From assembly GCA_903813345.2 (NCBI GenBank), contig CAIIXF020000012.1, forward strand, positions 11,082,932 to 11,146,931: a stretch of DNA of 64,000 nt, written 5' to 3'. Position numbers and translations under genes: made by a program. Origin of the DNA: Owenia fusiformis (lineage: Eukaryota; Annelida; Polychaeta; Sabellida; Oweniidae). Shown here in pieces: positions 769 to 57,453 of the stretch. Each line of letters opens with the position of its first letter. Position 1 is the first letter of the stretch. The notes beneath the pieces are model-generated. The model made no database searches, had not been told where the DNA came from, and saw nothing but the letters and a program-made list of their open reading frames with translations.

Positions 769-3700
769 TCACATGACCAAGCACATTTGAGAGGAATTTC
801 TGTATCTTGCTTGTTGTATAAATTGAGCTCTCCTATATAACTCCTTATTCGGAACTACTCTTCCAGTAGTTTGCTCTTTCTGTGTGTCATTGCTGTTATG
901 GTCATGTTCATGCACAGATACATTCTCGGAATATCTGACTTTCCTGACATTCTTAGCGTCCTTTGTGGTAATTTGTTTCTTATTGTGTGTACTGACGCTT
1001 TGAGTCAGCCGTGTGTTCTGCATTGTAATATCCGTGGTTATATGTGGTTTGTATGAACTGAGAATGCCATTTTGTGTCGCCACCAAGATGTTTTGTTCTT
1101 GACTTGAGCAAATGTTTGTAACTGGAGAGTAAACGTACTGCCCATCGGGTACAAGACTTCTACATTTGGCCATGTCGTATAGATACACCAATCTCTCGTA
1201 GCAACCGACTCCTAATAATTGACCATTATGCAGGAAGGACATTGCGGTTATCGTCATCCTAGATGAGACTGTTTCTTTACAAACCAATAGGGTTTGGACA
1301 ACCTGCCTTCTTTTCAGATCCCAAATCTTAATATTAAGATCGTTTCTTGTAGTGGAAGCAACGAAGTTGTTATGTACCTTCAGGATGGTTATCTCTGTGG
1401 TGTGTTCTTGGTATGTATACGCAAGGCAGGACATGGATTCAAAGTTCCAAGCATATATTTTGCCAGTGTCTGTGCCATATAGTATAAGGTCATCGCTCAT
1501 TTCTAGTGCAGTGATATCCTCATCTTTCAGGTTAATTTCAACATCATCGCATTCGAATTTTTGCAAATGACAGAGCCTCACTTTGTTTCCATTTAGAGCA
1601 ACCACAAATAGTTTCCGATCTGGATGTGTTGCAATATGCGTAACCTCTGATTCAAACTCAAATGCCAATGTTCGTTTGAAGCTCGTTCCCACCATTTGCC
1701 ACACATTTACAGCATTGTCAGCCCCGCCCGTGATCAAGTGGCTCCCATTTGGTGTGCATACCATACACGTAATTTGGGCATCGTGTGCAAGAGTGGTCGA
1801 TATTTTCCTAGATTTTTTCATATCATACACCATAAATGTTACATTATCAGTATCTAACGTAACAACGTGTTTCCCATCAGGGAATACTACTGGTTTCATA
1901 TCGGTGTCATTTTGGAACTCGGGTACAACATCTTTCAAGTTTGGGTTTAAATGCCATATCTTAACATATGGAGATTCATTGGATGCAGACACGGCCACGT
2001 CATACTCATCATTTACCATGAGCTTCGTCACGCTTCCTGTCATACCAGAGTATGTGGATTTCAGCTCACTTTTTCCGAGGTCCCATACTTTGATAGTACA
2101 GTCACTTGCGGCTGATATCAAAGTGGGCCCATTTGTCTGAGATTCACCACTGTATCCAGTGAAACATACCGAATTGACTATTCCTGTATGCCCTAGAAAC
2201 ACGTGCAGCATTTGACCAGATTCTGTTGCCCAAACTCTGACATCTTTGATTGAACCCACAGCAACAAGTTGTCCATCGGGGGAAAGGGCAACCGAAAACA
2301 TAGTCTTGGATTTTGTAGGCTCTATGTGTTGGATGACCTTTCCCCGTTTTATGTTGTATATAACGATGGAATCTTCGAAGGACACACTCGCTATTATACC
2401 GGACTTTACTGCCATATCCAGGCCTGTTATTTCATATCGTTGTATATCATACGTTACATCCTCTCCACTTCCTGCAATGTTAGAATATTCCACACTTCCA
2501 TTGTTATATCCAATTAGAATGTGTTCCTTCTGATGAACGCTAAGGTATGACACAATTGCTTTATTACCATGGGTTTTCTCCTTGATAACTTTCCCTTCAT
2601 CAATGTTCACCATAAAGATAGTGTCTTCAATCGGATATACGATGTTTCCATTAGAAAGTGCAGCCATTTTGGGTTTGTTTGTTAAAGCATTGGCGGTTTC
2701 GCTAGATGGGCTATGTGGGCGTTTTAAGGGTATGGTATGTCTAAGTTTGGATGTGCCCATATCCCAAACGTATACAGTGTCGTCACAAGATGTCACAATA
2801 GCATTGGATGACATCACACAACTCTCAACGGAACCTAAAATGATATTAAAAGATTTGTTAAAGTAAAGGCCTCTTTAGTCATGTTAGTAAATGGTTCAAC
2901 TGCAGCAAATGTTTGTCAAAATCATCAAATAAATTTTTAGGTTTTATACAGAGGATTCTGAAAATTGTCACATACAGGTACGGGTGCCTTTTTAAATCAA
3001 CCTCGCCTATTTTGGACTATACATACGGCCCTGACTTGTACAAAAAATAATTTTCATCAGATAATAGAATGACTTAAACATGTACGGGACTTAGACTAAC
3101 CTGGATGAAAGAGATTCTGAATGACAATATCATCTCTAAGGTCCCAGAGCTTCGCTATGCGGTCAGAACTTGCAGTCACAAGAAGCGAGCAATCCTCATT
3201 TATGGCAGCATCGTTTATAGCTTGTTGGTGGCCCACCAATGTAGTCCGTAGAACTCCACCAGGTGATATAAAACATGGAACTGTTGGAATGAGTAAATCC
3301 TGCTTTGCGTTTTCACACCATTGTATAGCCTGAGATACCAGCTGAATCAGAAAAGAAGATATATAGAAATACCACTGGCGTTTTTAAATCTATCTATTAT
3401 TAAACCATACTGTGTACATGGTATTTATGGGGCAGTTGCTGGTATTTCATAGCGTTATCTTAGTTTTAGCATCAATAGTAGTCTATTGGTGAGCTACATT
3501 TAAAGAATAACGAAGTGTAATAATTCATTCGTGTACCTTTCCAATAATCTTTGGGTATTCGTCCACCTTTATAAGGAGTCTACCAATGATCTCAGGAGCA
3601 AGTGTTTCTGTTGGATGATACTCAAGCGTTGGCTTTATTAGTCTAGAACAAAAACATTTCGTGTGATATTATTTATCGTTTAAGCTTTATTGCCTCATTG

Positions 3701-6700
3701 GAAATATTATATTTCAAATATTCCCATTTTAAATAGTACTTAAAAAATCAGATAAACAACTTCAAGTTCAACAAAACTCATCGGGGAGGGGGGGGGGGTT
3801 AGTAACAGTAAATTTGGTAAAGTTAAGAATTCTTAAGTTCTGACGTCTGTATATCCATGGTAAAAACAATTGATTCAAGAATCCTTTACTTTGTGAGAGT
3901 TTACAGAATCTCAGAAGTCAAGAAGTCGATATATCCATGGTTTCAACAATTGATTTGGGGAACGATTCTTAACTTTGTGAGATTTGTGTATTCTTAACTT
4001 TGAGAGTTCAACTATGAGATAAGAGTGGAACCATAATATGGCTAAAATGACGTCAGGACTTTGTGAGGTTTCTGTAAACTGCATGATTATTCACCTTAGG
4101 GCATCTCTGAGGACCTTGAACTCCTCTTCCCCTGTGTCTGAAATAACCATATCAATGTCCCGGATGACTTCTAAAATATTCATGGCTGTCACCTTGGTAA
4201 CAATCCACTCAAAGTTACCAAAACAAACATCAACCAACTCCTCATGACGACCGGATTTAAGCAGATGGAGTGGCAGCTCGTTGAGTTTCCTCATATTGTA
4301 ATAACCACCTTCGTAGAACAGCGGTTGTGGTTCAACCTTCCTGTCTGCGAAGAAGGTTTCCTTTCTTTTAGTAAGATAGAGTTCCTTCTTCCTCCCATTG
4401 CTCCAAACTCCAAGGAACATGTCTGCTAGTTCTGAATGTATCTTTTGTTTCATTTCATCACATAGGTAACGCTGTCTAGCGACCTCTATGAATTGCCTGG
4501 AGTGTACAAAGAATCATGTCATAGCATATCTAAAAATATCTCGTACTTGCGTGGGTTTGGGGTAGATATCACTCGGGAATAAATGTCATATCTGAGGAGC
4601 GGGCAGGATATATTGTACATGTCCCGCTCCAGGCCAAAAGCGGGCAGATATAATATCAGATAACCTCCAAGTACATAAACCTTATATATGTGTCAAGTGA
4701 CCTCAATGTTATATATCTCGAGGGTAGTAAAGAGGATGATAAAGAGGGTAATAAAATATCAAGTGAGTCATGCCTCCATAGAACGTCAGATTTGGAAAAA
4801 GCTATACCTGTGATAAAGTGCCAGAACGGTTTTTCCATCAGCCTGTCTTTCCATGAGGTACTCATTTATGTCCTGTCTGAGTCTGGTCCATAGTAATGGT
4901 GGTATCCTTACAAGATCTTTGACAGGTGGTGAGAAATACTGGTAGACATCATCTAGCACTTCATTACTACTAGACAGCAGGTTATCCATTTCTAGATCTG
5001 TCACTCCCTGTCTGAAATCGATTACTTACTGATTAATATCAATGTTATTTTTTCTTTGCAACAGAAATGGTCCTATATGTTATTAGAGGCGTAGCCAGCT
5101 ACAGAATTTGCCTCATTTTTTTTACTTTGCCTCGTCTTTTAGGATAATGGCTCCACCCCTATGACATAGATGAGTTGTATATTTAATTGCATTTTGATAA
5201 TTACAACATTTCAATTGTTACACTTGTCTCTCAAGGCCATTGTTTCTCATAATGTCTATCATCATTATTATTTGAGCTAAAGATAGTGGCATGTGTTACA
5301 ATTTATTTATTTGTTATTGTTTCTATATAGAACACACTCAACGTGTTTTATAGCATCTTATTTGATGTGTATAAAAAGTGTGAGACAGCTACATGTACAG
5401 GTAAGTAAAACTACGAATATCTACATGCATAAGAATGTTAATATGTTAGTTGCCATCCACATCGTGTAAATAAATTAATATGATACAAAGTGATTTGAAA
5501 GATACTCGGTCCTTGATAAATGACATTTTAAAACAAAAACAACATGCAACTTATAAGAGGAGTATATAAAAGTGACACAACTACATGTATATGTACAGTA
5601 CATGTAATAAAATTAGGAATATCTACATGTATAAAAATGTTAATATGTTAGTTGCCATCCACATCATGTAAATAAATTAATATGATACAAATTGATTTGA
5701 GAGATACGTGGTCCTTTATCAATAACATTTAAAAACGAAAACACCATAAGCAACTTATTAGAGGAGTATATAAAAGTGACACAACTATATGTACAGTACA
5801 TGTGATAAAATTACGAATATGTATAAAAAATGTTAATATGTTAGTTGCCGTCCACTTCAAGTAAATAAATTCACTAGCTAGGCATATAATAAAAAGCAAT
5901 AATGATTAAATTAAAGTAACTACAGATTTGTGTATCAGTCATTGTTGTAAGAATTGTATACATTTTTAAATTAATAAGATTGTAAAACATTATTGGATAA
6001 CAGAATTGGGAATTGAGCTAGAGAATATACGTGAACAGAAAAGATAATCAGAATTTATAAAAGATATCTGTCATGTGCATTTACTCTGATTATATTAAAC
6101 ATTTTTTAAACATTTAATTGTCGTAGAAATAGGTAAGAGTGAAAAACATTCTATTCAGAAATCTAAACACACAAAGCATAAAACTGTCGCAGATACTTAC
6201 TCCCTGTTAAGAAAAAGAAAATAGTTGGTAGGTACGAAACATAATATGTAACAACATTAAAGCAACAACACATGAACACTGTATATTCTGAATGATAATC
6301 TCAAAACTATACAAGAACAATAAAATAAGGTTAATGGTAAATTTCACGTTACAACAATTGAACAACATAAATTATAATCATTTATCTTGGCAACCCTATG
6401 CAAAAGGATACCTACCTTCTGTTCTTTGTGAAGATATGAAATAAATGATCGAACATACACGTTTGAGTATTAGATACACTCTAAATAACAAACTTAATAT
6501 CCTTTTTAGAAAAGCAACGTAATGGATGGGTACAGTATCCTTTTAATTTCCCTTTGATCTACATGTTAACCTCTGTCCCTCCCACTATTATACTAATATT
6601 TCAAATATAAGTTCCATTTCCCATGCTATAGACCAATGTTTCCCCCTTATGGAAAGAGAAATGCTTCTTGCGGAAAGTAATTGGTGGTGAGGCCGATGTA

Positions 6701-9700
6701 TCCTTTTAAGAATGTCATACCCTACTTTTCGTCTTACCTTGCTGCTGCTATATAAGCCATAGCATTGATAAACAGCTGGCCATGTTTCTTCTCTAGTCTA
6801 TCAAATAGCAACATTATACCATCTTGTATTGTGTTGCCAAGTGTGATGTCATCAACATTAGAGTAAGACCTCCAGTTTTTGGCCTCCTCAATAGCCAACT
6901 TAAGGAAAATCGGACTTTTGCAGTTTTCAAATAGATTTTCGAGGATTTCCATTTGGGTTTTTGTAATTGAGCGGTTGATTTGTCGGAGGCTTGTTTCTAA
7001 GATGTCTGTGCATTCAGCGTCATCTAAGAAACCTAGTTCCAAAATGTTGTTTGGGTTATCGATACATAGTACACACCGGTCTAGAATGCCTTCATAACCG
7101 GTCAGTACTGAGATGACGATTTTGATACCCTTTGGAAGATTGAATGGAAACCAGTTCAGACTATAAGCACCCTCTTTCGGTGAGAGCTGGTCTAGTGAAT
7201 CCAAAAATAGAATCACCCTGTGCCCTTCACCCGACAGCTTCCGAAACATTTCCTGAAGGTATGGCACCATTGAGTTGATATCATTGAGCGTTGGCCTTGA
7301 TGGTACTGGATATCCAACTGCTTCACATATCTGTAGACACACTGCCTGCAGCGTATCTGTGATAAGTGTACTTTTAGGTGATGTCCCCAGAAACCGTACA
7401 ACAACTACCTCATCTTTACCATGTTTTTCTATTGCATTGCGAGTGAGCTTGGCTATAAATGAAGTTTTCCCAATTCCAGATACTCCATGTATCACAAAAG
7501 GAGCTCTATTAGTGTCATCATTCAGGTATTCATCCACACGTTTCTGGCCTTGGTGTCTACAATTGAATGATCTACTCCTTCGGGCACACATGTTAAGATG
7601 ATGTAATACTTCACTGAATAACCAGTTTGAAGCAGCTTTGTCCCTTTTCTCCAAGGCTTTAACTATCATGTCCCTAACCCTTGATGTAAAGAACTTACAA
7701 AAGTCCTCTAGGTATTTTGCATGAGCAGGTACCATTGGGTTTATACCTGAAACCAAAATGATGCCACATTTAATACAGTAAAGGAAACATGATCAGATGT
7801 TATTGGAAATGCGACTTTCATGTTGGCTATCTTACTGACAAAACAACCTTTTTGGGGGTTGCCGATTTGGCCGAGAGGGCTTGAGCGCCGGCACGTTCGA
7901 GCTAGGCGATTTAGCGCCGTAACCACGAGGTTGCGAGTACGTGTGCTCCTTGTGTTTATTCATTTATGTTAGTGTGACAGAATATGAGGACATACAGTAG
8001 AACATATAGCTACACATAACATTTACTGATTAGCGATTACCTACCATTTTTCTCCCATTGTAGTTTGTACTTTTGTATTTCCGAATCTGCGATATGTTTC
8101 GGAATAGTCTCATCTCTAAGTTCCCCTAAGAGTTCAACAGTCTCTTCATCCAATGCATCTTTGTTGTCATTCATATCAACGTATCTGTATGCCTTTTCAT
8201 CAGTGAAGTCAACATTGTCAATCTCTCTGGTTATCACAATGCATTTATTTTCTGAGGTTGCGCAAACATTGAGCAATCCCCTTTTAACTTCTTCCTCTGT
8301 AACTGATATGTTAAACTGTTGCCATTCTTCAAACGTCATGTGTTTCTGTTTTAACGCTCTTTGAGATGTGGTTCGGAATATCGCTTGAATTTCACATTGG
8401 ACTTTCCACCAATCATTTTTAGCTTTCTTACGAAGCTCCTCATTGGCTGGATTATCGTCAATATAAGATGGAAAGATGTCTGTGATTGGCTTAAGAGTAT
8501 ACTCTGGCGGGACTGCATTTGTATCAAGCATGTACCATTCCTCGATGGTAGCCAAAGGTAATTCAGCTGCTTTTGCGAACTGTTTAATGGTCTGTAAAAC
8601 CGAGGCTTTGATTCTTGCTGGTAAAGGTCGTGAGCCATATCGCCCCCCTAGTATAACCTGTAGATCATAAAAGAGGTATACGATACAATCCAATGACAGA
8701 CACCAATTTCTTTCACGCAAGATATACTAAAATAACTTTGTTGATATTGGATAATTTTATTCATTAATTATGAAGAACACAACTGAAAATTCAGTTTACT
8801 GAATGTTATATATTCCAAATAATAGTAGACTAAATGCAATACCTTAAATATTCAATTCAATCCACACCCTTTGTAAGACGATTCTACTTACTAGTATTTT
8901 TAATGATTTCAGCCAAAATGACAACAAAAGTTTTGTAATTAGATTGTGATAATTGTACATTCCATCTCTTTAGCTTAACGTAGGAAATATATCTTACGCA
9001 AAAGTTTGGTCCCACTGAAAGTCTCTGGCAGTTGTATATCTCTTGGAGACAGATTTCTGTTGTCTGATGATCTGACGTCATCACATCTCTTACTCCCCAT
9101 CGCATGTCAACCACCTAGAAAAGGGTAACATTTGAGAGTCAAGCATTCAGCACACTATAATGCAGCATTCAGTTGGGCATGGACACATACATGTATAGCC
9201 CTTACAGTGTCCAAGAATGAGTATGAATTAATAAAACTGCACATAGAGAGGGGGACCATATTTGGGCTTGACCTAAATAACATAAGAGCTACGAGAGTAA
9301 ACATTGTTAATAGTGATAATATTATTTAAATATAGCTTATTTAATACTATGTTTCATTCAAATATGTGAATACTGTTTATCACATGCACTAGAATTATCA
9401 ATTGAACTTACAATAATATAACCCATTTTACACAGTGCCTATATCAGTCAATGAAGTACCCGAGTTCCACTTTGATATTGATTTACGCAACATTATCGTT
9501 AATCGAATCATTATTAAGTGTATTCAGCAGGTAACAGAAACAATGGTTTCCATTAACTCTCACTCTAACACTTGTTATTCACAAATGGTGACTAAAAGTA
9601 AGTTATCATATATGAAACCATTTATAGTGCCTCGGAACCCCCACTTTACTCACTACTAAGAGCAAATTAATTTACTTACTTGGAAGTCGAGTCCATTCTG

Positions 9701-10212
9701 AGCACAAAATTGTCTCAGTTCAGGATACGCTTTGTCCAATAAAATATTTCTCTCGTTGATCGTGTCTGAAAGTTTAAATACGCATTACATATACGAGAGT
9801 TGTCCAAAAAGTATTAACTTTTTGACAACCCTCGTATGTTATAAGATCCATTAACCAATATCCATTTAGATCCTTCAAATTATATGGCTCTTCAGCACTT
9901 GTTACATATGTCATATTATGGGCACATTATGGTGAAGTATTACCATATTACCATTTTGAGTATAACGCCCGGGGGATAACGATAATATTCTTATAGTAAA
10001 GTACGGTATGACATGTATCTTGCATATTTGTTTGAATGAGTCAAGTCTTATCATACATGATTGTGTACTTTATAATGAATCCTGAAGTTACCTGTAAATG
10101 TCGAGCTGAGGAAAATCCTGACAATATTAGACGTATTATCAGGTAGGTTGTCCAGGCGTCCTCTGTATATTTCACGTTGAGATGCTACCACCTCCTCTTC
10201 CGGAGCCGGCAT
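769..10212 (-). CDS. NWD1/NWD2-like NACHT and WD40 protein, copy A (10 exons)
   Basis: Exons, 5' to 3': 10212-10092, 9765-9680, 9114-8998, 8657-8045, 7746-6738, 5011-4808, 4496-4095, 3642-3537, 3341-3101, 2834-769. All junctions are GT-AG and in frame, giving 1654 residues. The N-terminus (about residues 33-115, RIFLSSTFT then VVDMRWGVRD) matches the DUF4062-type domain of NWD1, NWD2 and TEP1. A NACHT ATPase follows, with P-loop GVSGIGKTSF near residue 400 and Walker B VILFLDSLDQLS near 495. From about residue 890 to 1590 there are roughly a dozen WD40 repeats, which probably form two propellers. The last residues are CLVM, a farnesylation-type CaaX box after a basic tail. By family it is a cytosolic STAND ATPase, here possibly membrane-anchored; its ligand is unknown. 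The start is the first ATG of exon 1 and aligns with copies B and C. Intron 5 (5012-6737) is enlarged by tandem repeats. Exact mammalian orthology (NWD1 or NWD2) is not resolved. Confidence 0.9.
3835..4000. repeat. Two-copy tandem repeat in intron 7 of NWD-like copy A
   Basis: Two imperfect copies about 80 bp apart share atatccatgg, a nearby caattgatt and ctttgtgaga. They lie wholly in the intron between 3643 and 4094 and do not touch the splice sites. Confidence 0.5.
5365..5875. repeat. About 200-bp tandem repeat in intron 5 of NWD-like copy A
   Basis: About two and a half copies of a unit of roughly 193-202 bp. The shared word ttaatatgttagttgcc recurs near 5438, 5640 and 5833, and each unit also carries tataaaagtgacacaacta and a tacatgta-rich stretch. 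Copies B and C have a short intron here (about 320 bp), so the 1.7-kb intron of copy A is partly due to this array. Confidence 0.7.
7850..7950 (+). repeat. tRNA-derived SINE-like segment in intron 4 of NWD-like copy A
   Basis: The sequence TTGGCCGAGAGGGCTTGAG resembles the D-arm and A box of class II (Leu/Ser) tRNAs. A degenerate B-box-like GAGGTTGCGAGTAC follows about 70 nt later, and local GC is much higher than in the surrounding intron. No good acceptor stem can be drawn, so this is more likely a tRNA-derived SINE fragment than a functional tRNA. It sits wholly inside an intron. Confidence 0.35.
9792..9836. repeat. Hairpin of two facing mariner-like terminal repeats
   Basis: TACGAGAGTTGTCCAAAAAG is followed after only a few bases by its near-perfect reverse complement, ending ...GACAACCCTCGTA. 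Terminal repeats of the form CGAGGGTTGTCC are typical of mariner-family elements. It looks like an element deleted down to its two ends. It lies in intron 1 of NWD-like copy A. Confidence 0.5.
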
Positions 10213-15339: not shown

Positions 15340-18300
15340 ATGGCTGATCCAGAGTCTCTAAAGGAAACAGAGATGGAAACATCTCAACATGAAATATACA
15401 GAGGACGTCTGGATAACCTACCTGATAATACTTCTAATGTTCTCAGGATTTTCCTTAGCTCAACATTTACAGGTACGTCTATAACATTAAGACTGTATGA
15501 TGATGATTTCATTTCTCCAATCAAAGCAATTTGGATATAAACCCTCTCCATTATTAGTTTGGCAGCTTGTAATACCGATTGAACAGCGTGTTCAGTGTTG
15601 CCTGATTATGTTAGAATCTTCATTTTGTTTCCCAAATAAAAAGGTAGGTTGCATGGCTATTGATGAGCTGAATGTCTTAAATTGGCAAATGAAAAAGGCT
15701 TTAACAAGTTAACTGAAAGGATTATTTTCGTTGCCAAACTAACATCAAAGCTATGAAAAAAGAATTGAACGTGTTAAACAGAATTATGTGCCAATATAAC
15801 GCATCACTCCATCATTGTTGAAAATCTCTAGCCTGTTATTGAAAATGCATTCATGAATTATAAATGAATCGTGATGAATGATGATGTCGCAACGCAAAAC
15901 AAGTTCAGTGGAAAACACTATAGGCACAAATAATTCAAAAGTTATCAACAAATGAAAGAACAAATGAGGGGGGAAACTGAACTGTAGATTGCTATCATGA
16001 ATCTAGTTCACAGCAATTTTGTAAGTCAAAGAGATCCTTTTGTCAATTGCATCAGCTAAATATTTATACCTGAATGTACTTACTGTATTTGATATCCAAA
16101 TATTTTACTTTTTTTCAAAAGTATCCCATGTTTTCAGATACAGTAGCTGAAAGAAATATATTGTTAGAAAAAGCCTATCCAGAACTTAGACAGTTTTGCG
16201 CAGAAAATGGACTCGATTTCCAAGTAAGAAAAAGTTGTACGTTAAGATTAACAATACGAATAAGTTCGACACATTATGTGTTTCAGTCATGTTTTGTAAA
16301 TGTTTCGCTTCCATTTTTATTTAATTGCTATACATGCTTGTGCATGTTTCATATTCACTGTGTAAAGTCAGTGACAAATAAAGGATATAACTACCATTTG
16401 ATCCGTATCTAACGAACACTATATTAACCATCATCAACAGCACTGAACGAAACCAGAAATTAAACATCCTAAATATCCTTTACGTAGCTTGTTTTTCGAG
16501 GTTGCTATAGTTTTGCACCGAAAGGGCAATACATAATCTCTCAATTATCTGTTCACAATTCGTACTTGGCGTTTTCATTCCCTCTCAGTGTAGCCATGTT
16601 AAAATTCATGAATATGACTATTTCTATGACTGCACCTCCAAATACATGTATGTGTTGCATATAAACGCATTGACATCCTGGGTCTCATTCTAGGTGGTTG
16701 ACATGCGATGGGGCGTTCGAGATGTGATGACGTCAGATCATCACACAACAGAACTGTGCCTCAAGGAGATACACAACTGCCAAAGACTTTCAGTTGGACC
16801 AAACTTCTGTGTAAGTGATACAATGTTTGTTTTGCTATGCCCCTACCGTACACTTTTTGAATAACTATGGACTAGGTCAGACAATGCATTATTACAAAAT
16901 TACCCCGAACATAATTGAAATATTTTTGTTTTTAGGTACTTCTTGGTGGACGATATGGGACTCGACCTCTCCCAGCAAAAATCGATGCTCTTCTCATGCA
17001 AACCGTTGAAAAATTTGCTAAAGAAGAGAACTTCAACCTGTCTGTCGTTAAAGAATGGTATAAACTTGACACCAACGCTGTTCCATCAGAATATATTCTT
17101 CAGCCAATCACAGAGAAGTTCCCATTTTACATCGATGATGATCCAGAGAATGAGGAACATCGGAGAAAGGCCAAAAGTGATTGGTGGAAAGTTGAGTGTG
17201 ATATCAACGCCATCTTTCGTACAGCATCTGCAATTGCTCTCAAAAGAAAATTCATGACGTTTGAAAACTGGCAGATTTTCAATATATCAGTAACAGAAGA
17301 AGAAATCAAAAGAGGACTGGTCAATTCTACTGCACCAGCAAAGGACAAATGTATTGTCATAAACAGAACCATTGATAATGTTGACTTTAAAGATCCAAAA
17401 GCATACAGATATGTTGATATGAATGACAAAAAAGATGCAATTAATGAGAAGACGGCCGAACTTTTGGCAAACCTAAAAGAGAACGTTATTCCAAAAGGAA
17501 TTCCTGAAACAGAGATACAAAAATACCAACTACAATGGGAAGCAAATGGTAGGTTTATAGTATGTTACTATTTCAGCTGAACCTTTTGGTAATTGATAAT
17601 GATTGCAAAATGTGATACGCATGGATACCGACACAAAACACATGTGAGCATAGAAAGGGATGGTTACCTATAATCAACAGTTGTGGAGAAAATAAGTTCA
17701 TGCCGTTGTGGCTTGACCCCTGTCTTCTTTATAATGTAAATTTGACTTTCACTTAAATATTAAAAAGCAACACTAGGTATTCGCTAATGAAACCATAATC
17801 CCCCCCACCTAACAAAGCTGACTTCGTTATTCACCATCACTCAGTATTCCAATATACATGTACATACAATAAATAATGTGTTAAGCACAATTAGCAACAT
17901 TAAAAGACAAAACATCACTTCATTAAGAATTATAAAGTTTAATTGATTTTTTTATTTTCAGGTATAAACCCAGCCATTGAAGCTCACGAAACTTATCTGG
18001 AGGATTTCAATCAATATTTCGTTTCAAAGATAAAAACTATGACATTGACTGCTCTCGAGAAAAGGAACGCTAGAACTTCAAATTGGTTATTTGCAGAAGT
18101 TCTACAACACCTCAATATGTGTGCTAGAAGAAGTAAATCATACAATTGTAGGAAAGGATATCAAGAACGCGTGGATGAATACCTGGGTGATGACAGCAAC
18201 ATGGCTCCACTGGTAATACATGGAGTCTCTGGTATCGGAAAGACGTCATTCATGGCCAAGATTACTCGTAATGCAATAGAGAAACTCGGTACAAATGCTG

Positions 18301-21300
18301 TTGTTATTGTACGTTTTCTAGGTACATCACCAAAGAGTTCCCTTATCACTGATACACTCCAGACATTGTGCCTACAGATTTGTAAAGCATTTGATTGCGA
18401 TCCACCTCCAAGTTCATTAAGTGACATCAATACAGTCGTATCATTCTTCCAGGAGCTCATTACACAAGTATCTAAAGATGGCCACCAATTGGTTATTTGT
18501 CTAGATTCGTTAGACCAACTGTCTCCAATAGATGGAGCATATGACTTAAGCTGGCTTCCATTTGAGTTACCAAAAGGTATCAAAATAATCACCAGTTTGC
18601 TTACAGACTATGCAGGTATACTTAAGCGCTGTGAGCGATGCATAGAAAACACTGACAATATTCTACAACTAGGTCCACTCTCAGATGATGAAAGTAAAGA
18701 GATCATTAAAACTTCATTAGAAAATGTCAATCGAACAATAACCGAAGACCAAATGACAATTTTAGAAAACGTGTTCAAATATTGCAATAGTCCTTTATTT
18801 CTGAAGCTAGTTTTTGAAGAAGCAAAAACATGGAGATCCTATTCTGCCTTAGATGATATCAGATTGGGAAACACCATACAAGAAGGGATAACAGTGCTTT
18901 TCGAGCGTCTACATAAGAAACACGGACAGTTGTTCTGCAATGCAATGTCATACATCACCGCATCCAAGTAAGCTTAATCAAATTTTATTGAAGCTTCACT
19001 ATTATCTTCCATTTAGTATGTTCTTCAAAGCGAGATCTGATACTACTACTAGCCATTCCTCTAGTGTCATCCGTAGGTGACATGACGTGTTCCATATAGA
19101 AAGTCCAAAATCTTGTGACTGCAAATGGATGGTCAAAATCTTTACGGTTATTCTACGATTGAACGTTCACATTTAATAGTAATTTAATGCGAGATCATAA
19201 TACAAATAATATATTTTTCATAAAGGATACAGTTGATTGAATATATATGTAAAGTACTGTTTGTATTTCTTAATTTGGACATTTCAGGAATGGTGTCACA
19301 GATCTTGAAATGGAGAACTTGCTGTCAAGTAGTAATGAAGTACTAGATGATGTCTACCAGTATTTCTCTCCACCTGTTAAACACCTAGTGAGGATACCTC
19401 CATTACTGTGGACCAGACTCAGACAGGACATCGATGAGTATCTTACAGAGAGGCAGGCCGATGGAAAGACAGTGTTAGCCCTATACCATAGGTAGCTTCA
19501 CTTTTTGTATTAGTGTATCATGTGACTGGTATGGTTTTTAGGATTTCCTGTTCAAATCATACATGTGTGTTATCATTTTTATTCGTTTCGTATATTTTTT
19601 CCATTTTAGGCAGTTTATCGAGGTTGCAAAAAAGCTATATCTCAGTGATAGTGTGAAGAAAAACGTTCATTCAGAACTTGCAGACATGTTCCTGGGAGTT
19701 TGGAGCAATGGGAAGAAGAAAGAACTCTATCTAACTAAGAGAAAAGAAACTCTCCTCGCAGATAGGAAAGTGGAACATCAACCATTGTGTTATGAAGGTG
19801 GCTATTACAATATGAGAAAACTCAATGAGCTTCCGTTTCATCTCCTGCAATCCGGTCGTCACGAGGAGCTGATCGATGTTTGTTTTGGCAACTTTGATTG
19901 GATTAATACAAAAGTAAAGGCGACCAATATTCTAGCTGTTATCCGGGACATCGACATGGCTATTGCAGAGACGCCAGAGGAGGAGCTGATAATTCTGAGA
20001 GACACCCTAAGGTATTGCTTGGTTTCTGCATGTGTTGTGTAATACATATCTACATTTCTTACCATGAAACACAACGGGCATTGAAAACCTTACACTAGAA
20101 AAGTAGATACTTGTCGACCTGAATGATCTGCAAAATTGAAATTACAAAACAAATACATATATTATCTTGCAATAAAGTCAAATGTAGTCAACTACAGTAT
20201 ATGAATTCGTGAATTAACAGTAATATGTTTATTTTATATTGTTAGGCTTATAAAACCAACAGTGGAATTCCACCCTGATAATCCCCTTGCACCTGAAATC
20301 ATAGGGCGCCTTCTGATTAAGGTTGACGAATATCCACACTTAATTGGACAGGTGAGTTATATAAACTGTACCATGATTAATTTTGTAGATTACTATATAC
20401 AGGTATTCTCAATGGTCAATACTTTGTGAAAATCATGTATTATTCGGTATCAAACTATTTTATTCTACTCCAAGATTTACCTTCAAAATGATCTTTTGAT
20501 AGAATATGAATACTGATATGATCCCTCTCATACTTTGTTTATAAATTATCAAATTTTATCTAATTCAGCTGGTATCTCAGGCTATACAATGGTGTGAAAA
20601 GGCAAAGCAGGATTTACTCATTCCAACAGTTCCATGTTTTATATCACCTGGTGGATTTCTACGAACTACATTGGTGGGCCACCAACAAGGTGTAAACGAT
20701 GCTGTTATAAATGAGGATTGCTCGCTCCTCGTGACTGCAAGTTCTGACCGCACAGCGAAGCTCTGGGACCTCAAAGATGATATCGTCATACAGAGTCTAT
20801 TTCATCCAGGTAATACAGTAATATCAAATGTCCTGTTAAATATTTTGGCAATCCTAAGATTAGCCAGATGGAATAATTCATGTTTTGAAACACAACAATG
20901 ATTGAGATTTGGCATTATATATGAATTCCAGAAATGATAGAAGGGTTAATTTAAATATCTTAAATTATGAACGCATTTCGATTTCAGATTCTGTTGAGAG
21001 TTGTGTACTACTAAGCGACAAGAAAATCATCGTGACATTTAGTAATCTCCAAATGTTCATCTGGGACACTACCACATGGAAACTAAAAGACAAACTGCTA
21101 CTTGGAAAACCAGACAACGGAAGAGAAATGACGTTCACAACTGAAACGCCAGATAAGGTTTTGACCACAAAACCAAAAATGCTTGCTCTCACCAACGGAA
21201 ATATTATCTGCCCTGTTGGTGGAACATTAAATGTGGTGGATATATCAGAAGGGGAAGTTATTGATGAAATCCAAGGTGGCGATCTTCTTATTTCATGCAT

Positions 21301-23077
21301 ATGTATCAGCCATGGTACAGTTTTAATAGCAGGGTACGACAATGGGTGTGTAAGGTATATTGACACTTCTAATAATGGAGAAGATGAAACGTATTCACTT
21401 CACAAAGATGAAATAACTGGTTTGGCTACAACTGCAAACTCTGGCACTGTAGCAAGTGTATCATTTGATGGCTCTATCGTTGTATATGACATCACAGTAA
21501 GAAAGGTCATTCAACATATAAATCCTAATAAATCAAAGCCTCTGTTTTCGGTGGCTTTATCACCAGATGAAGAACTAGTTGCTGTGGGTTCAATCAATGA
21601 TATCAGAGTCTGGACAACAACATCTGGACAGATGCTGCACATGTTTCTAGGACATTCAGGAGTTGTCAATTCGGTTTATTTTGCTGGATATAATGGCGAA
21701 TCTCGAGCCACTGGACCCACTTTGCTATCTGCCGCAAGTGACTGTACAGTTAAAGTCTGGGATCTTGAGAACAGTGAGCTAAAGTCCACGTATACAGGTA
21801 TGGCTGGAAACATCACAAAGCTTATGGTAAATGATGCAAATGAAACAGCCGTGTCTGTATCCAATGAGTCTCCGTATGTAAAGATATGGCACCTGAACCC
21901 AGATTTGAAGGATGTTGTTCCCGAGTTCCAAAATGACACTGAAATTACGCCTGTTATATTCCCCGATGGTAAACATGTGGTTACCTTAGACGCAGACTAT
22001 GTATCGTTTATGGTGTTTGACATGACATCTGGAGAAAAGGTTTACTCCACACTTGCACACGATGCTCCAATCACAAGCATGGTGAACACACCGAGTGGAA
22101 ATCACATGATCACCGGAGGGATCGATCATACTGCTCGTGTGTGGCAAATGGATCAGGGCCGTTTTCAGCTTTCATCACTATTTGAGTTCGAGTCAGCAGT
22201 GAAGCTTATAGCTACACACCCCGATAGGAAACTATTCGTCGTGGCTCTGAATGAAAATCAGATTAAGCTTTGTCGACTGGAGATATACGAGTGCGATGAT
22301 GTTGAAGTTGATTTAAGAGATGGTGATATAACTTCAATAGTCATGAGTGATGAGCTCATACTCTATGGCACAGACACGGGCAAAATATACGCCTGGAATT
22401 TTGACTTTATGTCCTGTTTGACGTATGTATTTCAGAAACATAGCACACCGGTGACATTGCTCAGGGTACATAATAACTTAATGGCGTCAGTAGCGAAAAA
22501 TGACAAATGTATTCAAGTTTGGGATGTCGCTACCGGGAGAAAGGTACATCAGTTAGAAGTGACAAACAAGGCCAATGACAAACTACACTGTACGATAACA
22601 GTAATGTCATTTCTACACAATGGTAAAATACTTGGAATAGGTTGTCACGAGAGATCTGTTTATTTATACGATGTAGCCCAAGGTAGAAGCCTTTTGCCTG
22701 ATGGCCAGTACGTTTACTCTCCAGTTACAACCATTTGCTCCAGTCAAGATCAAATGAACATTCTGTTGACAACGAAAAACGGGTTTCTCAGCTCATACAA
22801 AATCCACCTTGTCACTGATATCACTTCAAAGAAGAAGCAAACCAGTCTGCTTGACCAAGCTCCACCACAAGGAATCAGTCGAAAGAAACTCGTACAGTAT
22901 GATGCCAAAAATGTTAGCAAAATAAGATTTGTTGAGAGTGCACGTTGGGTCGGACATGGAAACAACAATCCAAGAGCAAGTACTCAAAGAGTGCCAAATA
23001 AGGAACTTTATAAAAGAGCACAGGTTATACAACAGGCAAAGTTTAAGGACTCTTCCAAAACCTGCTCAGTAATGTAG
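15340..23077 (+). CDS. NWD1/NWD2-like NACHT and WD40 protein, copy B (10 exons)
   Basis: Exons: 15340-15472, 16138-16223, 16694-16810, 16936-17548, 17962-18967, 19288-19491, 19610-20011, 20246-20351, 20569-20809, 20988-23077; all GT-AG and in frame, 1665 residues. The start (aaccATGG context) gives MADPESLKETEM and aligns with copy C. An upstream in-frame ATG at 15253 is less likely because the three proteins align only from about this point. Domains in order: DUF4062-type N-terminus (RIFLSSTFTDTVAERN, VVDMRWGVRD), NACHT ATPase with P-loop GVSGIGKTSF near residue 404 and Walker B LVICLDSLDQLS, a helical linker, then WD40 repeats (for example AKLWDL, VKVWDL, ARVWQM, IQVWDV). The protein ends TCSVM, a CaaX farnesylation motif. 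It is closer in sequence to copy C than to copy A. Family role: STAND-type signalling ATPase, with ATP binding in NACHT and ligand sensing or scaffolding by the propellers; a sensor role here is inferred. Confidence 0.92.
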
Positions 23078-29869: not shown

Positions 29870-32800
29870 TTACATTACTGTGCATGTTTGAGAAGCATTT
29901 CTGTGTCTACCCTGTATAAACACCGCTCTTCTGTACAGTTCCTTATTCGGAACAACTCTGGCGTGTTCCTTTCGAGCCTCATGTCTTTTATTGTCACGTA
30001 CATTCTCAGTATGCCCGATCTTTCTTATATCGTTAACATTATATGTCGTAACGTTTTCCTTACTTGGGAGTAAAATACGATTGCTTTTTGTCAGAGATTG
30101 TCCCTTCATGTCCTCCATGGTAATGTTTGTGGTTACATGTATGTGCGGTTTGTATGAACTAAGGAAGCCATTTTGTGTCGCCACCAAGATATTTTGATTT
30201 TTACTTGAACAAATGTGTGTAACTGGGAAGTAGACATATTGTCCATCGGGGAGGAGTCTTCTCTCATGAACTACATCGTACAACTCCACAGATCTCTCAT
30301 AGCAACCAACTCCTAGTATTTTACCATCATGTAGGAATGAAATCGCTGTTACTGTACGTGGAAGTTGACTGTTAAACTTATTCCGGATTTCTAATTGATG
30401 CACATTTCGTCCCATAGTAACGTCCCAGATTTGTATATGTTTGTCAGTCTTAGCTACCGATGCCATTAGGTTATTTTGCACGGTGATGTAGTTCACTGGA
30501 GTGCTATGCTTTTGAAACACGTGCACCGGATGAGCGGTACTGTCAAAGCTCCAAGCGTATATTTTGCCATTATCAGTGCCATATATAATGAGCTCATCGC
30601 TCATTGCCAGTGTCGTAATATCAGCATCTGTGAGATCGACTTCAACATCATCGCACTCATGTCTCTCAACGTGACACCGTTTGATTCGATTATCACTAAG
30701 GGCCACAACAAACAAATTCTTATTTGGGTGTGTGGCTACGAGTCTCACTTCAGATTCGAATTCATATCGTAATGACATTTTGAGAAGTCGTTCCTTTTGC
30801 CAAACACGTGCAGTATGATCGATCCCACCGGTAATCACGTGATTTCCACAGGAAGTACACACCATGCTTGTGATTGGAGCATCGTGAGCTAGAGTAGAGA
30901 AAACCTTTTTCCCAGAAACCATATCAAACATCATGATCGATACATAATCCGCGTCTAAGGCAACCACGTGTTTACCATCTGGGAAAATGACAGGTGTAAT
31001 TTCAGTGTCATTTTGGAACTCGGGTACAACATCGTTTAAATTCGGGTTCAAGTGCCATATTTTCACAAAAGGCGATTCATCAGAGATAGACACAGCTGTG
31101 TCATAGTCATCATTTATTATAAGCTTGGTAACATTTCCAGCCATCCCAGTATATGTAGATTTAAGCTCATTGTTTCCTAGATCCCAAACTTTGACAGAAC
31201 AGTCACTTGCGGCCGATACCAAAGTTGGACCATTTGCTCGAGATTCACCACTATAGCCAGTGAAACATAAAGAATTGACTACTCCTGAATGCCCTAGAAA
31301 CTTGTGAAGTATCCGACCATCTTTTGTTGTCCATACTCTGATAGCGTTGATTGAACCCACGGCAACAAATTCCTCATCCGGTGGTAAAGCCACGGAATAC
31401 AGAGGCTCAGACTCATTTGGGTTTATATGCTGAATGACCTTTCTCATTGTGGTGTCATATACGACAATGGATCCATCAAGTGAGACACTTGCTATAGTAC
31501 CCGAATTTGCAGTCGTGGCCAGACCTGTCACTTCATCTTTGTGCTGTAGATACAATTCATCTTCTCCATCATCAGCAGTGCTTATGGAGCTCACGCATCC
31601 ATCGTGATAACCTACTATTATAAGAGTGCCTTGGCATATAGAGAGGCAGGAAACAAGTCGATCGCCACCTTTTACCTCAATGACAACCTTCCCTTCTGCT
31701 ATATCTACCACAAATACCGCTCCCCTTACAGCGCAGACAACATTTCCATTTAACAGGGCACACATTTTAGGCTTTGTCGTTAACGTTTTATGCAGCGTCT
31801 TCGTTGTGGACGCCATCTGTCCTCCATTATATGTTCTACCAAGCTCTAATGTATGTCTGAGTTTCCGTGTGGAAGTATCCCAGACAAAAATTTGAAGATT
31901 ACTAAATGTCACTATGATGTTCTTCTTGCTCAGCAGGAGACAACTCTCGACAGGATCTGAAATTAAATTTAGATGAATATTTAACTAATATACATGTACG
32001 TGTGTATTACAATATTGGTCTTCCTACATGTTCAAAATCGGTGTAGTTTTTGCATTCAATATGAAGGCTGTGTTACATGTTTTTAAGTTTTGTTTCATGT
32101 AAACGTGGAAAATTCTGGCCTTTATGGATTAGTTCTCCCTGTCGTATCATTTACTCGCCCGATTGAGTATGGAGGCATTGATAAAAAAGTTTTTATTAGG
32201 TTCCTGGGAAAACAGAAAGGAGGACTCTTATGAGTGGTCATAATATTATACGTTCGCCCTCTCTTCAAAACTTGCAACTTGACCGCCTCATATCATGGAC
32301 GAAAATCGTTGCATTACCTAAGTGGAATAAGCTGTGGATGACGATATCATCTTTAAGGTCCCAGAGCTTTGCTGTATGGTCAGAACTTGCAGTCACCATG
32401 AGCGAACAATCTTCATTCATGGATGCATCATTGACACCTTGTTTGTGGCCCACCAATGTTGTCCGTAGAACGCCACCAGGTGATATAAAACATGGAACTG
32501 TTGGGATGAGGATGTCCTCTTCTGCTTCCTCACAATATTGTATAGCCTGAGATACCAGCTGAATAATATATGAATAAGATATAAAATCTTTGCTAACAGT
32601 TATTTCTCATTCTAACAATGACATTGGTGCATTTTTGGATTAAATAAATATATGATAAGCAAATATTATTGAAATACCATGTTAGACAATGTAAATGCTG
32701 ATAGCTAAAATTACTTTCACTAATGACTTAATTGTCAATGTCTCCTTATAGTTCTTTTGATAGTTATATTTCTATGTAATATAGTTCTGGTTATTCACCT

Positions 32801-35800
32801 TTCCAATTAAGTGAAGATGTTTGTCCGCCTTAATAAGAAGACGCCCGATGATCTCGGGAGCAAGGGGGACTCCAGGGGTGAATTCCACTGTGGGTTTGAT
32901 GAGCCTATATTAAAATATGTAGATCCATGTTACTTTAAATTAATTACCCAACATACAAACATACATCCATACTAATATCAAGTATTTACTAAGCAATAAG
33001 TTTGACATGTTGAGACAGTTTTAATTTTTGGATTACAATTAGCAGTTGATTTGGGAGAAAATGTGTAAGGTTTCAATGTTAAAGTTTTTTTGGTGCTCAT
33101 AGTGGATCAGAATGTCAAAAATACCTGAGTGCGTCTCTCAGAATGACCAACTCTACTTCTGATGTCTCTGCTATAGCCATTTCAATGTCCCGGATAACAG
33201 CCAAAATGTTTGTTGCCTTTATTTTGGTATTTATCCACTTGAAGTTACCAAAACAGACATCGATCAGCTCCTCGTGACGACCAGATCTCAGCAAATGGAA
33301 TGGCAGCTCATTGAGTTTTCTCATATTGTAATAGCCACCCTCATAGCACAATGGTTGGGGTTCAACTTTCCTATCAGCGAGGAGGGTTTCCTTTCTTTTC
33401 GTAAGATAGAGTTCCTTCTTCTTACCATTGCTCCAAACTCCGAGGAACATGTCTGCTAGCTCTGAATGGACACTCGTCTTCACACTATTACTGAGATAAA
33501 GCTTTTTTGCAACCTCGATAAACTGTCTGAAATACAAAACTATCCACTGAATTACAACAATTGATATATATATATATATAGGACAATTAAATAAAGATAA
33601 TCTAATCTAAATCAAATATAAATTATACATCGCTTATAAGATCAACTATTACATTTGAATACCCCGTTGCAAACCTTTTTTTAAAATTAAATTTTATTCC
33701 AAAGAAAAAATATGTGAAAGCAATTACAATACAGTTACATATAACATTTACTATTTTGTTGACACTTTTGTATTTAAATTGCAAACCATGAAAGTATTGT
33801 TGATAGACATCGGATTGTGAACCCACCTATGGTACAGTGCTAACACAGTTTTTCCATCAGCCTGTCTTTCAGATAGATACTCATGGATATCCTGTCTGAG
33901 TCTGGCCCACAGTAATGGTGGAACTCTGACCAAGTGCTTAACAGGTGGGGAGAAATACTGGTAGACATCATCTAGCACTTCATTACTACTGGAGAGCAAG
34001 TTCTCCATTTCGAGATCTGTGACACCATTCCTGAAATGTTTTAATCTCACCTTAGCATGATGGTTAATGGATCGTTGTTCAGTGATTGTGTTCAAAATGG
34101 GGAGTTTATTCCAACTCAAGCTATTTAAGAAACATATCTGTTAGTCTTGTGTTATTGTGTTATTAGTTTGAGTTGCCTCATGTAAATAGTATAACAAAGT
34201 ATGATTCACATTCAAAAGTAATCAGTTAGATATCAAAATTGACATCAAAGTAAATGCTCAAAGCGCCTTTTTATAAAAGCTAAATAACATTCAGTTAGAT
34301 GAGCCCGAACTTGGATAGGTTAGATTTAAACGGCTTGCTGACTTACTTGGATGCAGTAATGTATGCCATTGCATTGCAGAACAACTGACCATGTTTCTCT
34401 TCTAATCGTTCAAACAGTAGTGTTATCCCTCCTTGTATTGTGTTCCCTAGTGTTGTTTCATCAAGGTTGGAGTAAGAACGCCATGTCTTTGCTTCTTCAA
34501 AGGCTAGCTTCAGAAAAAGAGGGCTATTGCAATGCATGAACGCACTCTCTAAAATTGACATTTGGTCTTTAGTTATGGTTCGTTTGACATTTGCAAGGGA
34601 GGTATTCATGATCTCTTTGCTTTCATCATCGTTGAGTGGACCTAGTTGGAGGATATTGTCAGTGTTTTCAATGCATCGTTCACAGCGTTTTAGTATTCCT
34701 GCATATTCAGTTAACAAACTGATGATTATTTTGATACCTTGAGGTAACTCAAACGGCAGCCAACTTAAGTCATATGCCCCATCTATCGGAGATAGTTGAT
34801 CTAACGAATCTAGACATACAATCAATTTGTGACCATCTTTAGAGACTATTTTAATGAGTTCCTGGAAGAGTGACATAACTGCATTGATATCATTGAGGGG
34901 TTGTTTAGGTGCGTCGTATCCAAATGCTTCACAAATATGCAAACAAACTGACTGCAGTGTATCAGTGATGAGGGAACTTTTTGGCGACGTACCTAAAAAG
35001 CGCACAATGACAGCGGAATCTTCACACTGTTGTTCTATCGCATTACTAGTGATTTTGGACATAAATGACGTTTTTCCTATGCCAGACACTCCATGTATCA
35101 CAAAAGGAGCATTATTAGTGTCATCATTTATGTATTCATCCACGTGTCTCTGGCTTTCCTTTCTACAGTTGTATGATTTACTCCTTGCAGCGCACATATT
35201 GAGATGTTGTAAGGTTTCATCAAATAACCAGTTGGATGCAGCGTTGCTCCTCTCCTTAAGGCCTGTCAGCGTCATTGCTTTTACCTTTGATACGAAAAAT
35301 TGATTAATGTCCTCGAGGTACTTTTCGTGGGCTTCAATGGATGGGTTTATGCCTGAAATCAGAAAAGGAAATTGGATTATTTCCCATGAAACATAGATCT
35401 CCTACGTTATGTAGCTTCTTTTTAAATTACTAAGTATATATAGAGATCTAGTTTACTGGCTTTTCTGTTGTTTTTGGAATTAGATATAGGTATATATTTT
35501 CAAATATAAACAGTATTTATTTTATCTTTCAAATGGAGTTTTTTGGAGTGAGTTCAACAATTTAAGTGATATTTTCAAAAACCATACGGCCAAACATGAA
35601 TTTTGATCAATATGCTGACAGATCCAATTTACGTACCATTTGTTTCCCATTGTAACTGGTATTTCTTTATCTCATTTTCGGGAATTTTTGTTGGAATAAC
35701 CATCTCTTTGAGGTTTTCCAGAAGCGCAGCATTTTCTTCATTCATTGCATCTTTTGTATCATTCATATCAACATATCTGTATGCCTTTGCATCGTTGAAG

Positions 35801-37752
35801 TCGACATCATCAATGTCTCTGTTTATGATGATACATTTATCCATCGTTGGTCCAGTTGTATCAAGTAATCCCCGTTTGATTTCATCCTCCGTCACCGATA
35901 TATTAAAAAGTTGCCAGTCTTTAAAGGTCATGCATTTTTGCTTTAGAGCTTTTGCAGACGCTGCACGAAAGATGGCGCTGATTTCACAATTAACCTCCCA
36001 CCAATCACTTTTAGCTTTCTTTTGCAGCTCTCGATTTTTTGGATTGTCATCAATAAAATATGGGAATTTGTCTGTGATTGGCTGAAGTATATATTCAGGG
36101 GGGACAGCATTACTGTCAAGGTGATACCATTCGTCAATTAGAGACACTTTGATGTCATCTTCTTTAGCAAACTTTTCGATGGTTTTCAGAAGAAGGCCTT
36201 CAATTTTTGCTGGGAGAGGTCGAGTGCCATATCGTCCACCAAGTAGTAACTAAAAGTACAGGGTGTCAATAAAGTATCTTTACACTTTGTATTGTAATTG
36301 TCAAGAGACCTTAAGGGCATCGTGTTTAATAACTTGGTTAGATAAGGTCTCTGTATAAAAATTCTCATATTTTTGTTATAGCAATTTACATAAATCTATA
36401 GATAACTGAACCAGATCACTATGGTCAAGTAGCAAAAGAAAAAAATAATTATTAATACTCAACTAACGCAGAAGTTTGGTCCCATCGAAAGTCTCTGGCA
36501 GTTGTATATCTCATTGAGGCACAGTTCTGTTGTGTGATGATCTGACGTCATCGCATCTCGAACGCCCCATCGCATGTCAACCACCTGGAAAATTAGATTT
36601 ATTGAGAAATCATCATATGGAGCCATCGGGTTGTGAAATAAAAGTTGATTGTACGATGTAGAAAGTGTGAACCCAGAGAAGTATAATAGTTTTCTCTATT
36701 GTCTTGTATTCGTAAAATATCATTGTCAAATAATTCCCCTTTACACAATCGCTGTCCCAGCTCGATTAAACAGTTATTCACACACAAGACAATGCAAAAT
36801 GCTGAAACATTTACGCATTGAGTAAATGAAAACATTATTCAATTTTTATTCCATAATTCATGTTTTTGCCACTGCTCTTTAATAGTACTTTTACAACACT
36901 CATAACTCATCAACATAACTATGGCTGTGAGTAATATCAACGTTTTCTACTTACCTGGAAGTCGAGTCCATGTTCTGCACAAAACTGTCTCAGTTCAGGA
37001 TATGCCTTTTCCAGTAGGATATTTCTCTCCGCTACTGTATCTGGAAATAGTTAAATTGCAATAGATTAGCTCTCCATATTGTATTTCATCACAGTATTTC
37101 ATCGCATGTTCAGATATGGCAAGAAATAATAGAGTACGAAAATAGACATGAGCAGAAATAATAGAGTACGAAAATAGAATGAAAAGAAATAATAGAGTAC
37201 GAAAATAGACATGATAAGAAAGAATAGAGTACGAAAATAGACATGACAAGAAATAATAAAGTACGAAAATAGACATGATAAGAAATAATAGAGTACGAAA
37301 ATAGACATGACAAGAAATAATAGAGTACGAAAATAGACATGACAAGAAATAACAGAGTACGAAAATAGACATGACAAGAAATAATAAAGTACGAAAATAG
37401 ACATGACAAGAAATAGTACGAAAATACTTCAAAATAGACATGACGAGAACTAAAATGCATGGAAGCAAGACACGAGACACAGAAGAGGCAGAAATACAGT
37501 TATTTGAATGTTAAATCCAATTTATGGCTTTGAAATGGCACACTTGTGGAAAAGTTGCCCTTTAGACCCATCTCTGATTCTATTTTCTGATTCATATAGT
37601 ATAATGTAGTTAGTTAGGTCTATTGTACCTGTAAATGTTGAGCTGAGGAAAATCCTGACAATATTAGAAGTATTATCAGGTAAATTTTCCAGACGTCCTC
37701 GGTATATTTCACGTTGGGATACCTCCGCCTCTGTTTTCTCTTTAGATTCCAT
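29870..37752 (-). CDS. NWD1/NWD2-like NACHT and WD40 protein, copy C (10 exons)
   Basis: Exons, 5' to 3': 37752-37629, 37040-36955, 36584-36468, 36249-35637, 35352-34347, 34030-33827, 33526-33125, 32904-32799, 32558-32318, 31956-29870; all GT-AG, 1661 residues. It starts MESKEKTEAEVSQREIYRGR. The DUF4062-type N-terminus carries RIFLSSTFT and VVDMRWGVRD. NACHT has P-loop GVSGIGKTSF near residue 401 and Walker B LIVCLDSLDQLS. WD40 repeats include AKLWDL, IFVWDT, VKVWDL, IQIWDV. The last residues TCTVM are a CaaX box after a basic tail (ELYRRAVFIQGRHRN). Its head region is closely similar to copy B, which it faces tail to tail. Intron 1 holds a 32-bp minisatellite (37119-37443). A role as a cytosolic or membrane-tethered STAND ATPase is inferred from the family; ligand and partners are unknown. 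Confidence 0.91.
37119..37443 (-). repeat. 32-bp minisatellite in intron 1 of NWD-like copy C
   Basis: About ten copies of a 32-bp unit, aagaaataatagagtacgaa followed by aatagacatgac, with small length changes (for example near 37180 and 37410). Because 32 is not a multiple of three and the minus strand lacks stops, it yields long overlapping ORFs in several frames; none is likely to be translated. It lies between exon 1 (37629) and exon 2 (37040). Confidence 0.85.
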
Positions 37753-37947
37753 ATTAACAAGATATAGTTCTTAAACTATAAGAGCATCTGAAAATAGAAT
37801 TGCACATCAATTTTCTTTTTATGAAGATACTAGTATAATTATTTATAATGTATTGTACATAAAAATGTAAATTACTTCATCATTTCAAATTTAATTTTTG
37901 GCGCCTATATGTGTGTTTTTGAGGTTAGTCCGATCTTTCAACATTAA

Positions 37948-55980: not shown

Positions 55981-56584
55981 ATATGAAAAAATCTCATCGC
56001 GAGCATTAATGTCAAGTCATCAGTTAGATTAATAGAAATATAACGTTGAGAACATTAAACGCATCGTTGAGAAATCAAACATATATACTTCAATAATAAT
56101 TGACGATTTATAAATAACATTGCAAACAAATGTAGAATATAACGTACATGATGTATAAAGTCATACAACGATTTCCATAAAACAAAAGAATAGATAAAAT
56201 AACCTATACTTTGGCTTGAGGCGCGTATGATGCTTATCATACATATTGTAGAAAGTGGTATTCGAAGCCATCCCTGGGGGGGGGGGGTATCTCACATATG
56301 TACACGTGGTTCTGATAAGACAGACGAATGAGCCAAGTAGCCTCCTTGATAGAAAAGGGTTGATGAAGCAACGGACTCCCAACCAATCGACCATACTTGG
56401 AGTAATAGCGAAAAGCTTGACTCCAAGACGAACATTTTGGTTGTGGAACATTTAAATCTAAAATATCTCAAGTGCTCCACTGTTGAATGCATGTTAGCAT
56501 ACATGTATATATAAGAAAAAACTATGAGCTTTGTTTAGAACACTAGGAGCAGACGCTCATATTGTATTAACATTTTTGAATCTT

Positions 56585-57110: not shown

Positions 57111-57453
57111 ATAGCTTTCGCGAATTCAACTACCAGCGGCTGTCGGATCAACCTCATATTGTATGACTCATTTGACATATTCAAATGAGTCGAAATAGTT
57201 TGTTACGCCGTCATCTGATAGGTAGCATTTTTAAATACGTGAACTTGATAATAAGGCAGCTTTATGGTAATACTCTTTATCGTATGATCTGTAGAATGAA
57301 GCCTTCTGATTGGTCAGTTTTTGTGCTGTACCAATCTGTATTGTTACTGAGATTGTCAGCATTGATCATCTCCGTCGCAATACAGAAAACATTGGTACGG
57401 AGGGGACATTCTCAGATGCAATACAGATGATCACACGATAAAAACGTTATAGA

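Follow-up and report, generated by a model that had tools for sequence, protein, structure and literature searches.

Does a NACHT-WD40 gene of Owenia fusiformis end in a prenylation signal, and would such a signal place its ATPase on a membrane? The gene, here called copy A, lies on the minus strand of a stretch of 64,000 nucleotides (the window), which also carries the related copies B and C. Its C-terminus reads SSQM-CLVM-stop, and the question is whether the last four residues form a CaaX box that is selected, that is modified and that serves as an anchor.

Gene structure of copies A, B and C

The minus-strand translation of positions 769-840 is LYRRAQFIQQARYRNSSQMCLVM, followed by the stop. 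The frame to which it belongs (769-2874) has 701 open codons, includes the WD40 part and apparently forms the final exon of a NACHT-WD40 gene, with the stop and the WD40 repeats sharing this one large exon. The initial annotation had recognised a CaaX box at the end of copy A; the box stands, as CLVM at 772-783, and its interval had to be moved, since 769-780 takes in the stop codon and those for Met, Val and Leu and misses the one for Cys. An alternative last exon was rejected for A and B, because a scan of the last 330 nt of the genomic sequence found no GTRAG donor in either copy; copy C has one at -194. In total, the exon matches span 10200-772 (A), 15340-23074 (B) and 37761-29873 (C), as follows.

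Copy A
4094-10200, minus strand: upstream exon matches, whole (tblastn with copy B pieces; NACHT by Pfam)
10200-10093, 9766-9680, 9114-9001 and 8657-8040, minus strand: exon matches of the N-terminal region (tblastn with copy B pieces)
7762-6737, minus strand: NACHT exon match (tblastn with copy B pieces, Pfam)
4513-4094, minus strand: further upstream exon match (tblastn with copy B pieces)
1051-2829, minus strand: WD40 propeller region, residues 16-608 (Pfam, AlphaFold model, Foldseek)
847-1050, minus strand: linker from propellers to tail, residues 609-676, probably flexible (pLDDT below 50 with a three-sequence alignment, weaker constraint between copies)
808-846, minus strand: basic segment KELYRRAQFIQQA, residues 677-689 (modelled helix, moment and charge, kept in B and C)
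769-783, minus strand: CaaX box CLVM (772-783) and stop TGA (769-771)

Copy B
15340-23062, plus strand: exon frames, whole (frames, Pfam, tblastn)
15340-15471, 16137-16223, 16694-16807 and 16936-17577, plus strand: exon frames before NACHT
17943-18968, plus strand: NACHT exon frame
19542-20039, plus strand: exon frame after NACHT
20906-23062, plus strand: exon frame of WD40 part, linker and tail
23063-23077, plus strand: CaaX box CSVM and stop TAG

Copy C
29885-37761, minus strand: exon matches, whole (frames, Pfam, tblastn)
37761-37630, 37041-36955, 36584-36471 and 36249-35635, minus strand: exon matches before NACHT
35365-34346, minus strand: NACHT exon match
33561-33121, minus strand: exon match after NACHT
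31984-29885, minus strand: exon match of WD40 part, linker and tail
29870-29884, minus strand: CaaX box CTVM and stop TAA

Pfam placed NACHT (PF05729) above cut-off in all three copies, and the stretches GVSGIGKTS and LDSLDQL agree with a NACHT domain that has a P-loop; the NACHT exon of copy B matched no PDB chain. The AlphaFold model of the last exon of copy A, built on a three-sequence alignment (mean pLDDT 63.0, pTM 0.46), has propeller-type strands over residues 16-608. From residue 609 to the end pLDDT stays below 50, and the only helix in this very-low-confidence region is itself of low confidence (677-689). The low pLDDT of the tail is consistent with disorder, and the shallow alignment may lower confidence too. 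Among the 50 Foldseek matches listed for the model, tandem WD40 propellers predominate and Apaf-1 chains occur (3shf, 3sfz, 5juy and 3j2t); these matches mainly reflect the propeller fold. In all three copies the segment around the helix is positively charged (net +4), and its 11-mer hydrophobic moment peaks at 0.41-0.50. The earlier description of the copy A tail as basic and conserved agrees with this charge and with the retention of the tail in B and C, whose CSVM and CTVM ends that description left unmentioned.

Elsewhere in the window, three similar neighbouring genes on the minus strand (41134-42168, 46076-47110 and 50545-51543) have the look of fibrinogen-related lectins, with a GGWTVIQRR motif recognised by eye. 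At 56528-57166, frames of more than 150 codons are open on both strands and the composition is repetitive, probably a tandem repeat.

Conservation of the tail among related genes

We searched the genome (498 Mb, 525 contigs, E up to 0.01) with the N-terminal exon of copy B and obtained at least 16 matches, grouped into 13 genes including A-C, with at least ten genes outside the window; searches with the WD40 exons returned A-C only. From pieces of 10-40 kb around each of the ten outside genes, C-termini could be read as genomic frames, without transcripts, in seven, which makes ten readable genes among the 13. Eight of these ten, spread over six loci and five contigs (C1, C5, C7, C8 and C12), have CaaX ends: CLVM (A), CSVM (B), CTVM (C), CSIM (C1), CLLQ (C7a), CSLI (C8), CSLQ (C12b) and CCII (C5). 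The distant outgroup gene C6a has no box and ends ...KTET. The last exon of C7b, joined in frame by eye via GTAAGT and CTCTGTTCCAG, gives an acidic tail without CaaX. The C-termini of C2 and C10, both in the 11-gene group described below, were sought over 30 kb each and not found, and that of C6b was not read in its 10 kb piece.

Several of these loci have features of their own. C7b (contig C7:3015800-3055799; L012, L017, L020 and L022) is an NWD-type paralogue whose C-terminus is rich in Asp and Glu instead of carrying CaaX. Two closely similar distant NACHT-WD40 genes lie about 3.9 Mb apart on C6 (31598400-31608399 and 35506100-35516099; L005 and L007), and the readable one has a terminal Cys-rich CxxC...CxxC stretch without CaaX. 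In the C1 gene (L013, reverse complement, 1942-6081) a single uninterrupted frame of 1379 codons takes in much of the gene, beginning inside NACHT and closing with CSIM, while its relatives are multi-exon. The CCII tail on C5 (at about 24205641-24206210; L018) has two neighbouring cysteines, to which a second lipid could attach.

All eight CaaX tails share Cys at -4 and Ser at -7; at a2 each has V, L or I, and X is M in four, Q in two and I in two. Six divergent tails (B, C7a, C8, C12b, C1 and C5) were compared from their right-hand ends, with A and C omitted because they are closely related to B. Identity averaged over pairs was 0.49 for the seven terminal residues, against 0.09 for positions -8 to -17 and 0.06 for -18 to -40. 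VPNKELY, RA and a terminal C-x-V-M recur in all three tails of the window, after a linker that aligns poorly. Nei-Gojobori counts for the three pairs put dN at 0.15-0.24 for the tail, a rough value because its 28 columns hold few sites, compared with 0.17-0.32 for the WD40 part and 0.38-0.72 for the linker; dS was at least 1.1, and saturated and not computable in two of the nine comparisons. Constraint on the tail among these copies is thus similar to that on the WD40 part, and the linker is under less. This conservation is at the protein level, because the box encodes its Val by GTC in A but by GTA in the other two copies, and each copy uses a different stop codon.

A background of 634 stop-ended frames (at least 60 aa, six frames, window plus loci L004-L018), which is only rough because most of these frames are not genes, contained 23 with Cys at -4 and ten matching C-x-[VILMTA]-[MQSACTLIF]. 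Eight of those ten are the NWD genes, and the pattern occurs in two of the 626 non-NWD frames. For comparison, figures quoted from part of the PrePS paper are 1.7% of proteins with Cys at -4 and an overall false-positive rate of 0.11% for farnesyltransferase prediction (PMC1175975). Judged from these alignments and counts, the CaaX tail of copy A is not a product of chance, and there is good support for selection on the CaaX box across this family of STAND ATPases.

Probable prenylation and rival readings of the tail

Cys at -4, an aliphatic a2 and a permitted X are found in A, B, C and the five other tails, and published CaaX rules, compared by eye, fit. The PrePS rule, as given in the portion of the source used here, asks for a linker of about 11 small or flexible hydrophilic residues before the Cys (PMC1175975); small or hydrophilic residues precede it, which agrees by eye, and pLDDT is low there in copy A, but the C8 linker has three acidic residues, which counts against reading its end as a prenylation box. 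CSIM, the end of C1, is reported in the main text of PMC11152559 as a full substrate of human FTase in yeast and as about half modified by human GGTase-I, and CLVM, CSVM, CTVM, CSLQ and CCII are absent from that main text. The genome encodes the enzymes: beta-subunit exons, detected with Pfam and identified by their closest PDB chains (own chains best), are present for farnesyltransferase on C8, GGTase-I on C10 and Rab GGTase (GGTase-II) on C6, one exon each. The ICMT Pfam family has a match in one exon on C1, an assignment that holds only at family level because five of 14 prokaryote control genomes match it as well.

Prenylation of the NWD-like tails is likely. For copy A, the proposal made in the initial annotation gained from the retention of the box in eight genes while the preceding sequence diverges, from the fit to published rules and from the encoded transferases; the observation is correct and stands on firmer ground than the annotation had claimed. 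The terminal Met that it named as typical of farnesyltransferase substrates is one of three residues found at X in the family (M, Q or I); because of this range, some members may be geranylgeranylated.

We consider it probable that the four C-terminal residues of these NWD1/NWD2-like STAND ATPases act as a functional CaaX box, whose Cys is prenylated and which would hold the ATPase on a membrane, where ring assembly would occur. The protein would run from an N-terminal region through the NACHT ATPase, a winged-helix and helical region and the WD40 propellers to a linker of about 70 residues, probably flexible, then the basic segment and S-x-x-C-a-a-X. The Cys would be prenylated by farnesyltransferase (X = M or Q) or by GGTase-I (X = I, partly M), after which RCE1 would cut off aaX and ICMT would methylate the end, both steps being established CaaX biology. 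We infer that the prenyl group and the basic segment would together tether the ATPase at the cytosolic face of the membrane and that Apaf-1-type ring assembly would then take place there.

Against the membrane and prenyl reading stands C7b, a member of the 11-gene group with an acidic tail that lacks CaaX. In the parts of the mammalian studies drawn on here, human NWD1 is mainly cytosolic, in a comparison of nuclear with cytosolic extract only (PMC4039239), and mouse Nwd1 is in cytoplasmic purinosomes (PMC7186558). These data, from accounts that do not give the C-termini of the two proteins, would weigh against tethering.

The tail might also be prenylated and yet use its lipid for protein-protein contact, folding or a carrier cycle and not for lasting anchoring. 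A single farnesyl is, by established knowledge, a weak anchor. The placement of mammalian NWD1 in cytosol and purinosomes in those same partial accounts (PMC4039239, PMC7186558) favours this explanation too, but the basic amphipathic segment beside the box, with a net charge of +4 in each copy of the window, resembles an additional membrane signal, and we regard a non-anchoring lipid as unlikely. 

Far less likely is a tail that serves as a PDZ-type or other peptide ligand with an incidental Cys. A class I PDZ-like end is S/T-x-hydrophobic, and B, C, C8 and C1 have one, but A, C7a, C12b and C5 do not fit and the Cys is at -4 in all eight; with only four of eight tails fitting, this explanation was rejected. 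Slighter still is the chance that the Cys carries an S-acyl group or another modification in place of a prenyl group: C5 has adjacent cysteines, and NLRP3 is reported to be S-acylated (PMC11392533), but the aliphatic a2 in eight of eight tails and the restriction of X to M, Q and I are CaaX features. The least credible reading, that the box is functionless inheritance from a recent duplication, suits A, B and C as neighbouring paralogues but was rejected because S-x-x-C-a-a-X is kept in distant paralogues on other contigs and because the silent sites of A, B and C have changed heavily while the tail was kept. Five more genes, one each on C1, C5, C7 and C8 and one at another place on C12, retain the box although the sequence before it has diverged.

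Ancestry of the box and what it would mean

The working CaaX box, the reading that we prefer, raises the matter of its age. C7a matched Pfam NWD2_C over 341 of 341 positions with 520.9 bits; against a cut-off of 33, C1 scored 40.6, copy C 37.2 (best stretch, positions 10-161) and C12b 28.3. NWD2_C was absent for A and B among the 25 Pfam families listed, and no full-length match was found in A-C, C7a being the only one among the frames scanned to cover the whole profile. This match, set against the scores of the others, makes C7a an NWD2-like gene whose divergence from other members looks old. HTH_NWD1 was above cut-off in C1, C12b and C6a, in a scan that did not include the winged-helix exon of A-C. 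No relatives outside this genome were confirmed among viral contigs or prokaryote genomes, each scanned once.

In a tree of the 13 genes built from concatenated NACHT-to-helical segments, in which C2 filled only 44% of columns, the C6 pair is separate with full support and the remaining 11 genes, C7b included, are mostly without resolved order. Because of this the ancestry of the box rests on parsimony, and an ancestral box lost in C7b would be the simplest reading. Should vertebrates share the NWD2 lineage, the box would be older than that split. Tentatively, and with more doubt than confidence, we suggest that CaaX is ancestral in the NWD1/NWD2 branch of animal STAND ATPases, which would have been prenylated, ring-assembling membrane machines with some losses, vertebrate NWD2 and/or NWD1 descending from a lipid-anchored ancestor.

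NWD1 and NWD2 are poorly understood and have been likened to Apaf-1 and NLRs. The genes described here resemble them in NACHT and WD40 propellers, and some relatives have an NWD1-type winged helix. Apaf-1 shares the order of a nucleotide-binding domain followed by propellers; unlike these genes, it has NB-ARC and not NACHT, an N-terminal CARD and no known CaaX. Guanylate-binding proteins are prenylated immune NTPases with NTP-driven assembly and a C-terminal CaaX, but they are dynamin-like GTPases and not STAND ATPases. WDR72 belongs to a separate family and is not known to have a NACHT ATPase. The C-terminal CaaX (CKVS) of this WD40 protein is nonetheless described, in the portion of the report used, as required for Golgi and membrane localisation, which shows that CaaX can recruit a WD40 protein to a membrane (PMC8930991). 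NWD1 is described as cytosolic in the portions cited (PMC4039239, PMC7186558), whereas these genes carry CaaX ends. The open literature covered, mostly titles and abstract openings with subscription papers and supplements outside, contained no report of a CaaX box on an NWD protein and no paper linking NWD1 with prenylation or NWD2 with CaaX.

A selected lipid-attachment signal would tell where NWD proteins act, and would make this directly testable by one Cys mutation or a prenyltransferase inhibitor. If the reading is true, STAND ATPases would join the lipid-anchored assembly NTPases.
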